A DNA stretch of 64,000 nt from Chloroflexota bacterium. Its GTDB lineage: Bacteria > Chloroflexota > UBA11872. Under the pieces are notes generated by a model, which saw only the letters and a program-made list of their open reading frames with translations, did no database searches and was not told where the DNA came from. Location: the NCBI GenBank assembly GCA_022826485.1, contig JAJDUU010000005.1, positions 62,001 through 126,000 of the forward strand, given 5' to 3'. Each line of letters begins with the position of its first letter. Position 1 is the stretch's first letter. Position numbers and translations under genes: made by a program. Below are positions 36,101 through 41,067 of this stretch, in pieces.

Positions 36101-36170
36101 TCGGTCTCCGGCTACTGGGTCACTCTGAGTCCGTCATTCCCGCGAAGGGAGACCTTCGCGAGACCTATCC

Positions 36171-36259
36171 GTCATTCCGGCGGAGGCCGGAATCCAGTCC
36201 GGTCGAACCTGGAAGAGCGCCGGATGCTTGGCGTCGGGCGGGTCCGAGACCCGCCCCGG
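36171..36259 (+). repeat. Two-hairpin dispersed repeat, type B copy 1
   Basis: gtcattccggcggaggccggaatccagtccggtcgaacctgg...cttggcgtcgggcgggtccgagacccgccccgg. Confidence 0.75.
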
Positions 36260-36467
36260 CAGACTTATGCAAAGGTCTCCGAAGGCGGGAATTCATCCCC
36301 GCAAGTCAACCGACGACTCAAGGGTGCCGGATGCAACTGGATCATGGTGCGGCACTCAGATGCCGAAGTCGCCCACGGCCAGTCTCCGAACCCCCTGGCG
36401 CACGGCTGCTAGGGTATGCCCGCGACGCGACCACACCGCCACAAATCAACCCGCGAGAAACCGCCCG

Positions 36468-37484
36468 ATGAGAATTGCGCTCTACCAGGAATTCGGCGAG
36501 GGATGCCGGCGCCTCACCCATGAACTGCTGCCGCCCGAGGCCGGCTGGGAGCTGATCGAAACGCAGCACGTCGGTTCCGACGTTGCCTCGCTGGCCGAGG
36601 AGGACGCGGAGGTCATTCGCAGCGCCGAGGTCGTGATCGCCACGCCTCTCAGTCCCCTGCCGGACGCTATCTACGATCCCGACGGGCGGGTGCGGCTGAT
36701 CCAGTTGCTCTCCGCCGGTTACGACACGGTCGATCTCGACCGCTGCCGGGCGGCTGGGCAACTGCTGGCCACCAACGGCGGCGCCAACGCCGTGGCCGTG
36801 GCCGAGCACACCATCCTACTCATGCTCTCGGTGCTGCGTCGGCTTCCGGTCATCGACCGCGATACGCGGTCCGGGCGCTGGACGGCGGCTAAGACGCCCG
36901 AGTGGGAGCCGCACGAGCTGGAGGGTCGCACCGTCGGGCTGGTGGGCTTCGGGCAGATCGGCCGGCAGGTCGCGCAGCGGCTGCTGCCGTTCGGCGTGCA
37001 GCTGCAATACCACGACGTGGTGCAGGCGCCCCGCGAAGTGACCGAGAGCCTGCGGATCCGCTACGTGTCGTGGCCCGAGCTCTTGGAGACCTCGGACATC
37101 ATCTCGCTGCACGTGCCGCTGCTGGAGAGCACGCGCAATCTGATCGATGCCGCTGCGCTGGCCCAGATGAAGCCGGACGCCATCGTGATCAACACGGCGC
37201 GCGGCGGCGTGATCGACGAAGCGGCGCTCGTCGAGGCCCTGCAACGCGGCCATCTGGGCGGCGCCGGCCTCGATGCATTCGAGACAGAACCGTTTCCGGC
37301 CGGGCAAGCCCTGGCCGACCTCGATTCAGTCGTCCTCACGCCCCACTTCGCCGGACCCACCTACGAAAGCTGGCCCAAGCGCATCCGCTTCGCCTACGAA
37401 AACACAGCCCGAGTCGAACGCAACGAACGGCCCGAGGCAGTCGTGCTTGAGCTGGCGGATGTGCCACTAAGGGCGGCGCGGTAG
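36468..37484 (+). CDS. D-isomer-specific 2-hydroxyacid dehydrogenase
   Basis: TVGLVGFGQIGRQVAQRL NAD-binding, SLHVPLLESTRNLID, INTARGGVIDEAAL, LTPHFAG. Confidence 0.93.
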   Translation: MRIALYQEFGEGCRRLTHELLPPEAGWELIETQHVGSDVASLAEEDAEVIRSAEVVIATPLSPLPDAIYDPDGRVRLIQLLSAGYDTVDLDRCRAAGQLLATNGGANAVAVAEHTILLMLSVLRRLPVIDRDTRSGRWTAAKTPEWEPHELEGRTVGLVGFGQIGRQVAQRLLPFGVQLQYHDVVQAPREVTESLRIRYVSWPELLETSDIISLHVPLLESTRNLIDAAALAQMKPDAIVINTARGGVIDEAALVEALQRGHLGGAGLDAFETEPFPAGQALADLDSVVLTPHFAGPTYESWPKRIRFAYENTARVERNERPEAVVLELADVPLRAAR

Positions 37485-37573: not shown

Positions 37574-37876
37574 CTATTCCTGCGAGTATTGGACCTGCGC
37601 CTCGGCGAGCACTTCCTGGCGAAAGTAGCGGCTCAGGTCTTCCGGCGTGCGGAGGTCGACTTTACGACCGAGAATTCGCGTCAACTCCAACTCCATGCCG
37701 GCGAATGCAAACAGACCGGGGATTCGGTCCGGAGCAAACTCGACGAGCATGTCGATGTCGCTGTCCGGTCCGAAATCGGACCGCAGCGCCGAACCGAAAA
37801 CCGCCATCCAGCGAATTCCGTGCGCTTGGCAGAATGCCGCCAGCTCATCCTTCGGGATGGGTACTTGCACCGTCAT
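37574..37876 (-). CDS. MNT-type nucleotidyltransferase (MntA-like)
   Basis: [27 protein letters not shown] (GSx10DxD), [18 protein letters not shown]. Confidence 0.85.
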
Positions 37877-37891
37877 TGGACTGCTGCCGTT

Positions 37892-38240
37892 TCACGCCGC
37901 ATAGATCACCTCTGCAGACTCCAAGACTGCCCGACGTCGGATGTAGTTGCGGCTCTGCTCGACGGCACGGCGGCTGACCAGGTCAGCCTTGCGTCCAAGC
38001 AACTGACTTAGCTCCTCCTCCATGGTCACCATCACGAAGAGCCCGTGCTCCGCTTCTGGCAGGAAGCGCACCAACACGTCGGTGTCGCTCTCCGGTCCGA
38101 AGTCTTCGCGCAGCACCGATCCAAACAGCGCCATCTCTGCGATCTGTAACGCTTGCAGAGGGCCGGCAACGCTCGCGAGGGCACCTGAAACTCGCCCGAG
38201 GCAAGCAGATTGCCACGGGCCATGTCAGGCTCCAAGCGAA
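37892..38240 (-). pseudogene. Second MNT-type nucleotidyltransferase, apparently frameshifted near its N-terminus
   Basis: ORF 37892-38134 MALFGSVLREDFGPESDTDVLVRF...; expected N-terminal helix FQVPSRALPALCKRY lies upstream in another frame. Confidence 0.55.
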
Positions 38241-38325
38241 GGGATAGCGGTAACTGGGACGTGAAGCTAGACGGTCCAATAACAGCTCTTGACAAGACGG
38301 TGATCGCTAACTTCCAGCACGAAAG

Positions 38326-38937
38326 TCACAGCTCACTTAGAAACTGCCGGACCCCAGCGAAGGCGACGTGGGCGAATGCCCATTGGCCTCGCCTCGCTGC
38401 TACGCCCACGGAGTGCCGAGGCTCTTCCCCGGCTGCTAAGTAAGCAAAGGTGCGGGCTTTGTCGGGGTTTCTGACCGGTGCGCTTCGCGAATCCGTAACG
38501 CATCTGAGGAAGTCGTCAACGCACCCTCGTTCTGGAGTATCCGCTAGACTCTCCCACAGCAGCGTCTCGAGCATTCCCTCGCGGCCCTCGCCAGGAAGGA
38601 TCAGCACGGATGCAGATGGGCCAGCACCGGCGCGCATTGCTGGCTGCGACGGAACCGGAAGACCGACGTTTTCCAATGAACTCTGAACACTCTCAAAAGC
38701 CGCGACGGCATTGGATTCAGCGTCTCTGATGATGCCGATGCTCTGCACTTCTTCACTGAATCTGGGCATCGCAACAAGTCCTTCAAGGAAATCGCGTAAT
38801 TCGCCACCGCTTCCAAAATCCCGGACCTGCAAGTGCCCTATCTGAAGGTGATCGGCGAATGCTTCGAAGAAATTGAAACCGTCACGGCCTTCGACAAGAA
38901 GCTGAGCAGGATGCTCGATTCTAGCCGGATCGGCCAT
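38326..38937 (-). CDS. DUF3226 (TOPRIM-related) protein, partner of adjacent ATPase
   Basis: QLLVEGRDGFNFF, IGIIRDAESNAVAAFESVQSSLENVGLPVP, VLILPGEGREGMLETLL, CVDDFLRCV...KARTFAYLA. Confidence 0.75.
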   Translation of the reverse strand: MADPARIEHPAQLLVEGRDGFNFFEAFADHLQIGHLQVRDFGSGGELRDFLEGLVAMPRFSEEVQSIGIIRDAESNAVAAFESVQSSLENVGLPVPSQPAMRAGAGPSASVLILPGEGREGMLETLLWESLADTPERGCVDDFLRCVTDSRSAPVRNPDKARTFAYLAAGEEPRHSVGVAARRGQWAFAHVAFAGVRQFLSEL

Positions 38938-38939
38938 CC

Positions 38940-40040
38940 CTAGCGAAACTCCAAATCGTGCTTGATGGCGGCCTTGATCGCACTGGGCTTATAGGTGAAA
39001 CATCGATTTCCGATATCGCTGGCCTCCAGCCGGTGAAGCACAAAGCCATCGGCTCCTAGTGCAGTGTAGGCGTCGCTCATACATTCGTAGCTATGCGTAG
39101 TTGCAAAAACCTGTACATCGAACAACTTAGCAGTCTCACCAACGAATTGCCAGACTTTTGGCATCACTGTGTGGTGAATTCCGTTCTCAATCTCGTCTAT
39201 CAATAGTACACCCCCGCTCATCCCCGCCATAGATAGGCCAAGTGCAATCCAGGAAAGATGCTGCATGCCCTCACCCAGGGATGCCAGTGGTACGAGCTCG
39301 CGAAAGCCAACATCCCCCATTATCACGGGGACTCCGCTGAACGAGTTGTCCTCGACGCTCTTAAGCCTGGGTTCGATAATCTGTAATGCCTGCAATAGAA
39401 TATGTCCACGCTTTTGCCTTCTCACTTCCCCTAGTAGCTTCGGAGATTGATCAGGGCTTTGATCATTTGATGGAATCAATGCCGCATTAAATCTAGGTTC
39501 AATCTGCGGCGCTCCAGATTCAATATGAATTGTGTCGTTTCCCCGCAATAGCAGTCGGCTTTCATGGATCTTTATATCAGATGGTATATTCGGACCAGTG
39601 AATGCAAAGGTAAGGCTCTCGGGGTCGATTGATGCCGGACCCAACCCACTTGAGTTCGAGCTTATCTCTGCAATCTCGGTGCTCTTAAGCCGCTCAATGG
39701 AGATTTCTAAGGAAAGATCACCTAAGGTCTTCAGATCGCCAGAAGACTCATGTGTCGCCTTGATGGAAATCTTCTTGTTCTTGTTGAGGTTAAGGAACAT
39801 AGGTTTCCAATATAACTCCCTTACGGCTTCTGTAGATATTGTTGGTGATTCAACACCGCGAATGATGTTAGCGTTCAATGCCGGTCCTGGACTCCCGAAT
39901 CCAGCCAAGAGAAACAGTGCCTCAAGTAACGATGTTTTTCCCGAGCTATTCTTTCCTGCAAAGAGGTTGATACGTCCTAACTGGTCGACGGCCAAATGCT
40001 TGAAGGCACGGTAGTTGCGAATCTCCAGGCGCTTTAACAC
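38940..40040 (-). CDS. AAA/ABC-type ATPase (OLD/RecF-like, AAA_15/AAA_21)
   Basis: LEIRNYRAFKHLAVDQLGRINLFAGKNSSGKTSLLEALFLL (Walker A), SLGEGMQHLSWIALGLS, GVLLIDEIENGIHHT (Walker B), FATTHSYEC; locally AT-rich. Confidence 0.9.
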   Translation of the reverse strand: MLKRLEIRNYRAFKHLAVDQLGRINLFAGKNSSGKTSLLEALFLLAGFGSPGPALNANIIRGVESPTISTEAVRELYWKPMFLNLNKNKKISIKATHESSGDLKTLGDLSLEISIERLKSTEIAEISSNSSGLGPASIDPESLTFAFTGPNIPSDIKIHESRLLLRGNDTIHIESGAPQIEPRFNAALIPSNDQSPDQSPKLLGEVRRQKRGHILLQALQIIEPRLKSVEDNSFSGVPVIMGDVGFRELVPLASLGEGMQHLSWIALGLSMAGMSGGVLLIDEIENGIHHTVMPKVWQFVGETAKLFDVQVFATTHSYECMSDAYTALGADGFVLHRLEASDIGNRCFTYKPSAIKAAIKHDLEFR

Positions 40041-40078
40041 GCTTCAGGCTCCGAGTGCTTGTCTTCGGTCATTGAAGT

Positions 40079-40933
40079 TCATACCCGGCGGTCTAGCAAG
40101 TTAATGAGCTCGCGCCATTCGGCCGGCGCGAGGCCGCTGGATTCTTGATCGACAGTCTCGCCGTTGAGCATGCGGCGGAGGACGGCGAGGCCTGGGCCTG
40201 AGATCGAGGCGGCGTTCATGCGGTAGTCCATGAACGCGTCATGGGTGAGCGGCACCCAGCGGCGGATGACGTCGAGCAGCACGTCGGCGTAGGCGCGAAT
40301 CTCGTATTGCGCGTGGGGGTCGGCCCGCAGCCAGACGAAGTGCAGCAGGTTGAACAGGTCAATCTTCCAGTACCACTGGGTGTAGAAGTTGAGGGAGAGG
40401 TTCATCCGCGCCAGCTCGCGCGCCAGGCCCTGGCGGTCGGGATCGAGCGTGGCTCCCTCGGCGTCCAGGTTCAGCATCTCCTCGTAGTGCTCATAGGCCT
40501 GGCCGGCGTCGGTGCTGAGGAGATCGAGCACGCGCTGGGCCTCGCCGTCGTTCAGCACGTCCCCGCTGCCCTGGTGGTTGAGGCTCGACTGCGCTTGCAG
40601 GCGGTCGCGCTCGGGGACGTAGAACTCGTGGTCGAGCACGGAGTAGCGCGCGGAATACTCGTTCACGCTGGCGGTGCGGTGGCGGATCCACTGGCGCGCC
40701 ACGAAGATCGGCAGCTTGACGTGCAGCTTGATCTCGCACATCTCGAAGGGCGTGGTGTGCCAGTGGCGCATGAGGTAGCGGATGAGGCCGCGGTCGCGCC
40801 GCCGCCGTTTGCTGCCGCCGCCGTAGGAGACTCGGGCGGCCTGCACGATGGCCTCGTCGTCGCCCATGTAGTCGACCACGCGGATGAAGCCGTGGTCGAG
40901 GACCGGCACGGGCTCGAACAGAAGCTCTTCCAA
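40079..40933 (-). CDS. thyX: Flavin-dependent thymidylate synthase
   Basis: [72 protein letters not shown] (ThyX motif); TTG start inferred. Confidence 0.95.
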
Positions 40934-41067
40934 CGCCGCGACCGTGGTGCGCCGGGTGCTATGCGCTTGGGCGCGCTGCTCGGCGATGTCGGCCTGCTGC
41001 TCGGGCGCGATGCGTGGCGTCTGGACGGTTCCGGCGGTGCTTCCTCTGGCGGTTTGAATCTTAGCCG

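Follow-up and report, generated by a model that had tools for sequence, protein, structure and literature searches.

Several described systems couple an ABC-type ATPase to a TOPRIM domain. In OLD nucleases of classes 1 to 3 the two form a single polypeptide, and in the class 2 enzymes the ligands are E400, E404, D455, D457, T506, and E508, the helical domain contributing E508 from its first helix (PMC6755086). In PARIS, which is triggered by Ocr, they are encoded by two genes. AriA, the ATPase, binds the TOPRIM protein AriB and keeps it sequestered, letting it go as a tRNase once a phage protein is sensed (PMC12409363). AbiLii of the AbiL system is an effector of the TOPRIM_OLD type, and the AAA-TOPRIM_OLD pairs of the NetFlax network are toxin-antitoxin pairs for which neutralisation of the toxin has been proven in E. 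coli (PMC10440598). PADLOC-DB 2.0 lists a further two-gene phage defence candidate, PDC-M38 (genes M38A and M38B); a 2026 survey calls such PDCs unpublished and mostly unvalidated (PMC12988326).

Here, we examined a gene pair within a 64-kb window from a Chloroflexota bacterium, by which we mean the whole stretch of DNA analysed. We consider it likely that this pair was acquired horizontally as a two-gene cassette of PDC-M38 type and forms a split OLD-like abortive-infection defence module. Both genes lie on the minus strand. The first encodes an ABC/AAA-type ATPase of the OLD/AbiLi/AriA group (38940..40040, 366 aa), with a GTG start and a GGAG Shine-Dalgarno motif 8 nt upstream. The second, which starts after a gap of 2 nt, encodes a DUF3226 protein (38326..38937, 203 aa), a predicted TOPRIM nuclease with an OLD-type helical domain. 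The ATPase matches the Pfam families AAA_21 (1.3e-22, 81.6 bits) and AAA_15 (4.2e-18, 66.5 bits) and carries a Walker A motif (GKNSSGKTS), a signature (SLGEGM), a Walker B motif (LLIDEIEN), and a switch (ATTHS), the residues of which are conserved across its relatives in our alignment. It is an OLD/Rad50-type ABC ATPase.

These two open reading frames, their strand and spacing, and the ATPase motifs are as an earlier, sequence-only reading of this DNA had reported them, and its hand counts of G+C (22/60 at 39781-39840 and 44/60 at 40801-40860) were exact on recount. The low-GC islet that it proposed is likewise evident: the pair has a GC content of 52.1% (48.7% for the ATPase gene and 58.0% for the DUF3226 gene) versus 68.4% for the 64-kb window. 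All of the lowest-GC 1.1-kb stretches of the window fall over the pair, and outside 37.5-40.2 kb every such stretch is at least 64.6% GC.

The partnership of the two genes is almost obligate. DUF3226 was present in 27 of the 399 Chloroflexota genomes sampled, and each intact DUF3226 ORF among them had the ATPase directly upstream on the same strand, in a count that left out DUF3226 fragments and ORFs cut by contig ends. An ATPase search of 85,462 species genomes gave the same picture from the other side, with DUF3226 directly downstream of 77 of the 80 nearest ATPases. One exception lies at a contig end (L141); beside the other two (L072 and L111) we looked for a DUF3226 remnant and found none. 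The DUF3226 start mostly overlaps the ATPase stop or falls within 5 nt of it, and the distance matrices of the two proteins correlate (r=0.815, with a shuffled maximum of 0.143). In both trees the window copy falls in a strongly supported clade (support of 100 for the ATPase and 99 for DUF3226), in which Binatota, Latescibacterota, Acidobacteriota, Pseudomonadota, Gemmatimonadota, Cyanobacteriota, and Chloroflexota are intermingled; both trees come from quick searches and many of their branches are weak, and we rely on the window clade alone. Conserved co-occurrence, on which the sequence-only reading had made its proposal depend, is therefore what the 27 Chloroflexota genomes and the nearest ATPases display. 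In one Synechococcus bin (L097 7680-11791), an AAA-DUF4276 pair and an AAA-DUF3226 pair, both of ATPase-TOPRIM type, stand back to back.

The window ATPase ends in LEFR-COOH, in keeping with a family rule of E-hydrophobic-R at the very end of the protein. The terminal Arg is the exact last residue in 118 of 130 paired ATPases, and a relative from a P4-like satellite ends in D-I-R. We found no earlier description of this C terminus. The possibility that it is purely a Shine-Dalgarno effect of the downstream gene was examined through the codons and Shine-Dalgarno motifs at the ATPase 3' end. This explanation was rejected for the Arg, since all six Arg codons are used and its conservation thus acts on the protein. 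The Glu codon may partly reflect such an effect; it is GAG in 94 of 116 sequences, and Shine-Dalgarno-like motifs occur at the ATPase 3' end in 72 of 116.

Relatives of the pair are carried by several kinds of mobile element. Plasmids that have the pair as main cargo are a mobilizable one of 3,793 bp from Salmonella, E. coli plasmids of 4,693 bp, and ColRNAI plasmids of 4,167 bp from Klebsiella, on the last of which the genes are annotated merely as an ATP-binding protein and a DUF3226 or hypothetical protein. Searched separately, each gene matched 144 records of enterobacterial plasmids, 138 of them from Klebsiella. On two IMG/VR contigs the pair lies in lambdoid-type regions, with NinB or Q and O/P replication genes as its neighbours. 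The E. coli MB06172 copy belongs to a P4-like element located at ssrA, where it sits between psu (polarity suppression) and the integrase; the psu-int site of such elements is a reservoir of antiviral systems in which PARIS has been found (PMC9122126). Three DUF3226 queries found no relatives in 50,697 sequenced phage genomes, a first scan of viral contigs with the DUF3226 alignment gave no match, and a library of viral predicted structures gave no useful match to DUF3226. ATPases of the same group do occur on viral contigs (L162, L166-L168, L170-L173, and L175), most of them about 740-760 aa long and followed by a gene for a product of about 190-320 aa. Four of these small products were scanned; three had no Pfam match and one matched DUF3226 weakly (8e-9). 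These long ATPases with a small protein are a possible distant variant of the pair.

Within Chloroflexota, we compared 136 genes flanking the pairs with 134 genes taken from remote regions of many of the same genomes, using PADLOC and Pfam. Plausible defence genes among the 136 neighbours were few (two HmaB/DUF1156 methylases, PDC-S19, PDC-S35, and SIR2), and the enrichment of defence genes in this comparison is weak and not a clear one. Enrichment in defence islands, which the sequence-only reading had named as a check, is thus weak for the Chloroflexota neighbourhoods; relatives do sit on mobile elements and in the known P4 psu-int hotspot. Housekeeping loci, the setting that it had named as speaking against defence, are not where the relatives mainly reside.

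The same plasmids raise the question of whether the pair is instead a toxin-antitoxin addiction module, in which the ATPase would neutralise a DUF3226 toxin and which would mainly stabilise plasmids and islands rather than act against phage. In favour are the cryptic ColRNAI-type plasmids of 3.8-4.7 kb that have the pair as main cargo, the genes that overlap or nearly do so, and the related AAA-TOPRIM_OLD pairs, which do behave as toxin-antitoxin systems in E. coli (PMC10440598). However, the pair also occurs in chromosomes, in prophages, and in the P4 defence hotspot, and the related PARIS is not a classical toxin-antitoxin system, as loss of either of its genes is non-toxic (PMC9122126). We regard addiction as an unlikely main role.

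The DUF3226 protein matches its Pfam family (PF11536) at 2.5e-19 (70.3 bits, cut-off of 27). Its AlphaFold model, made from an alignment of 69 sequences (pLDDT of 96.1, pTM of 0.91), has a TOPRIM-plus-helical fold. The best PDB match of this model is 6njv, the C-terminal region of the Xanthomonas class 2 OLD, with a probability of 0.99, an E value of 2.4e-3, and a modest TM score of 0.43 in Foldseek. The archaeal structure 2p62 (PH0156) is related by profile (E value of 7.7e-6), and the OLD-like_TOPRIM family (PF20469) matches 39 of the 69 homologues, at best with 8.7e-7. The TOPRIM fold, the lack of which would have spoken against the earlier proposal, is thus well supported by model, PDB match, and family profile.

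Four acidic positions are nearly invariant among the 69 homologues: E16 (68/69), D72 (69/69), D/E74 (66/69), and E124 (69/69). In the model, E16 comes after strand 1, strand 3 ends with D72 and D/E74, and the helix that succeeds strand 4 begins with E124. They correspond to E400, D455, D457, and E508 of class 2 OLD, in a mapping that rests on motif order and secondary structure rather than on coordinates, and E16, D72, E74, and E124 are therefore the predicted metal ligands of the window protein. The invariant Glu and DxD motif of OLD TOPRIM domains are both recognisable, the latter as D-A-E in the window; DxE is found in 21 of the 69 sequences. Of the residues equivalent to second-metal ligands of class 2 OLD, E124 (for E508) is retained throughout, while position 20 (for E404) is D or E in 52 of 69 and G in the window copy, which is unique in this respect among the 69. 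Because this G replaces an acidic residue, the second metal site of the window copy may be impaired.

Could the window copy then be a decaying remnant with an inactive nuclease, of a family that is active elsewhere? The unique G at residue 20, an S at the residue aligned to the conserved G43, and a long terminal branch in the DUF3226 tree all point in this direction. On the other hand, both ORFs are full length, the ATPase motifs are intact, the four predicted ligands and the C-terminal ExR are kept, and the D-A-E variant is shared in form with the other DxE sequences. Decay strikes us as improbable, to about the same degree as addiction.

We next compared the locus with other genomes of the genus. 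Neither DUF3226 nor the ATPase was found in a search of the five other congeneric genomes, and the ATPase is present in 2 of 19 genomes of the family. In two congeners (G060 and G125), the counterpart of the nucleotidyltransferase gene at 37892-38233 is followed by the thyX region 31 or 43 bp later. Since the two neighbours all but adjoin there, the pair represents some 1.8 kb inserted cleanly between retained genes, and the empty sites are near-seamless. Set against them, the probable acquired cassette spans 38234..40052, with a right edge that is uncertain to about 40109. The horizontal acquisition proposed from base composition thus gains support from the absence in all five congeners and from the two empty sites. 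A 9-bp direct repeat, TCAGGCTCC, flanks the cassette on the plus strand (38225..38233 and 40044..40052), occurs just twice in the 64-kb window, and has a single copy at the G060 empty site. As marks of insertion these repeats are no more than suggestive, given that a Shine-Dalgarno motif lies within the sequence (the complement of the right copy contains that of the ATPase) and that the right edge is blurred.

The neighbour directly downstream of the pair, outside the cassette, is a minimal nucleotidyltransferase of the PADLOC PDC-S09 type (37892..38233, minus strand), the N terminus of which is degenerate or lost in the window and intact in congeners. A second one of the same type (37574..37876, minus strand) neighbours it within this variable site. 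Of the two genes, congeners retain either one or the other here, and no HEPN partner was seen beside the tandem (37574-38233) in the window. The site is bordered on the right by a conserved gene on the minus strand (approximately 40079..41020), which we take from a motif to be thyX, and on the left by a conserved gene on the plus strand (36384..37484), which by eye is presumably 2-hydroxyacid-dehydrogenase-like. In a third congener (G141), the same interval (L210 1100-7806) holds about 6.7 kb of alternative content, which encodes a methyltransferase of type III kind (2.8e-156), a PDC-S35-type TIR protein (3.4e-64), a nucleotidyltransferase, and a helicase-like protein that matches REase_III weakly. 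Given the empty sites of G060 and G125 and the island of G141, the locus is a small variable site that accepts different defence-type cargo. Farther left, at 36130-36292, lies a repeat of about 160 bp that is dispersed through the host genome in dozens of copies. Every congener searched has copies too, with best identities of about 90%.

This distribution bears on whether the pair serves DNA repair or housekeeping, in the manner of RecF/Rad50-like ATPases or of archaeal Cran1 in cell-cycle progression. The ATPase fold does match Rad50, PtuA, and SMC heads in structure comparison, DUF3226 occurs in Methanocaldococcus as well, and Cran1 is an OLD-family protein that is reported as apparently not antiviral (PMC12796447). 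Yet a patchy gene pair (27 of 399 genomes of the phylum, none of five congeners, the ATPase in 2 of 19 family genomes) that is cleanly inserted between retained neighbours and carried by plasmids, prophages, and satellites is a very poor candidate for such a role.

We therefore return to the defence module as the preferred reading and, by analogy with PARIS, AbiL, and the AAA-TOPRIM_OLD pairs, infer how it could work, including the lock or sensor role of the ATPase, the nuclease activity and its substrate, and the anti-phage outcome. An oligomer of the ABC ATPase would probably bind the DUF3226 protein, hold it in check, and sense infection. A trigger would cause an ATP-dependent rearrangement by which the DUF3226 TOPRIM protein is released or activated. 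It would then cut nucleic acid, either DNA or tRNA, with two metals, and phage growth would be stopped, probably because the infected cell shuts down by growth arrest or dies. More tentatively, and as a possibility we rate below an even chance, the DUF3226 pairs may form a class of their own among split OLD-like immune systems, with a regulatory device particular to them. The ExR tail of the ATPase could dock on or lock the nuclease, and small plasmids, prophages, and satellites would carry the pairs between phyla as part of an arsenal.

Our search of the open literature found no papers naming DUF3226 or PDC-M38 and no published test of this pair type. This analysis contributes a structural assignment and catalytic residues, shows how nearly obligate the pairing is, traces the distribution on mobile elements, and describes the C-terminal tail. 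DUF3226, a domain of unknown function, gains a structural and catalytic reading, and a database candidate becomes a testable claim. With the cassette present on very common small Klebsiella plasmids and in the P4-satellite defence hotspot, the answer would be relevant to many bacteria.

How, then, does the pair compare with the described systems? It shares with PARIS (AriA plus AriB) the two-gene architecture of ABC ATPase and TOPRIM protein and, through a relative, the P4 psu-int hotspot. Beside its effector, the ATPase also scores above the published PARIS thresholds of 32 bits for AAA_15 and 27 bits for AAA_21 (PMC9122126). That the pair is PARIS proper is nevertheless scarcely credible, as the effector is DUF3226 and not DUF4435 and the ATPase, at 2e-27 against AriA models, scores far better on those of AbiLi (3.1e-51) and PDC-M38A (1.1e-50). 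The window DUF3226 protein has no match to DUF4435 (PF14491) at an E value of 1 or better, and 7 of the 69 family members match it weakly (1.8e-5 at best). The ATPase resembles AbiLi over its whole length, but AbiLii belongs to the RloB family whereas the partner here is DUF3226, which has no match to the AbiLii/RloB models of PADLOC and Pfam. GajA of Gabija likewise has ATPase and TOPRIM domains, in one polypeptide rather than two, and no GajB UvrD-like helicase lies beside the pair, which is flanked by nucleotidyltransferase and thyX genes. Membership in PARIS, AbiL, and Gabija was thus rejected in each case for want of a defining feature (DUF4435, AbiLii, and GajB, respectively). The AAA-TOPRIM_OLD pairs of NetFlax are alike in their two-gene ATPase and TOPRIM architecture, which is the basis of our comparison; the main text of that study does not name DUF3226 (PMC10440598).

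Class 2 OLD has the same two domains, in one polypeptide where here there are two genes, and DUF3226 matches its C-terminal region together with the E508-bearing helical domain. Of the split OLD/PARIS-like architecture suggested by the sequence-only reading, the split OLD-like part accordingly stands as the preferred reading, on fold, ligands, and pairing, and PARIS proper does not. PDC-M38 is the same type of pair. The window genes match M38A at 1.1e-50 (profile positions 1-331 of 383) and M38B at 5e-8 (11-194 of 220), judged by profile scores alone, and a Chloroflexota relative matches them at 2.9e-79 and 7.8e-39. Because PADLOC already lists this candidate, the pair type is a catalogued one and not a new system, and the window pair is a divergent member of it.
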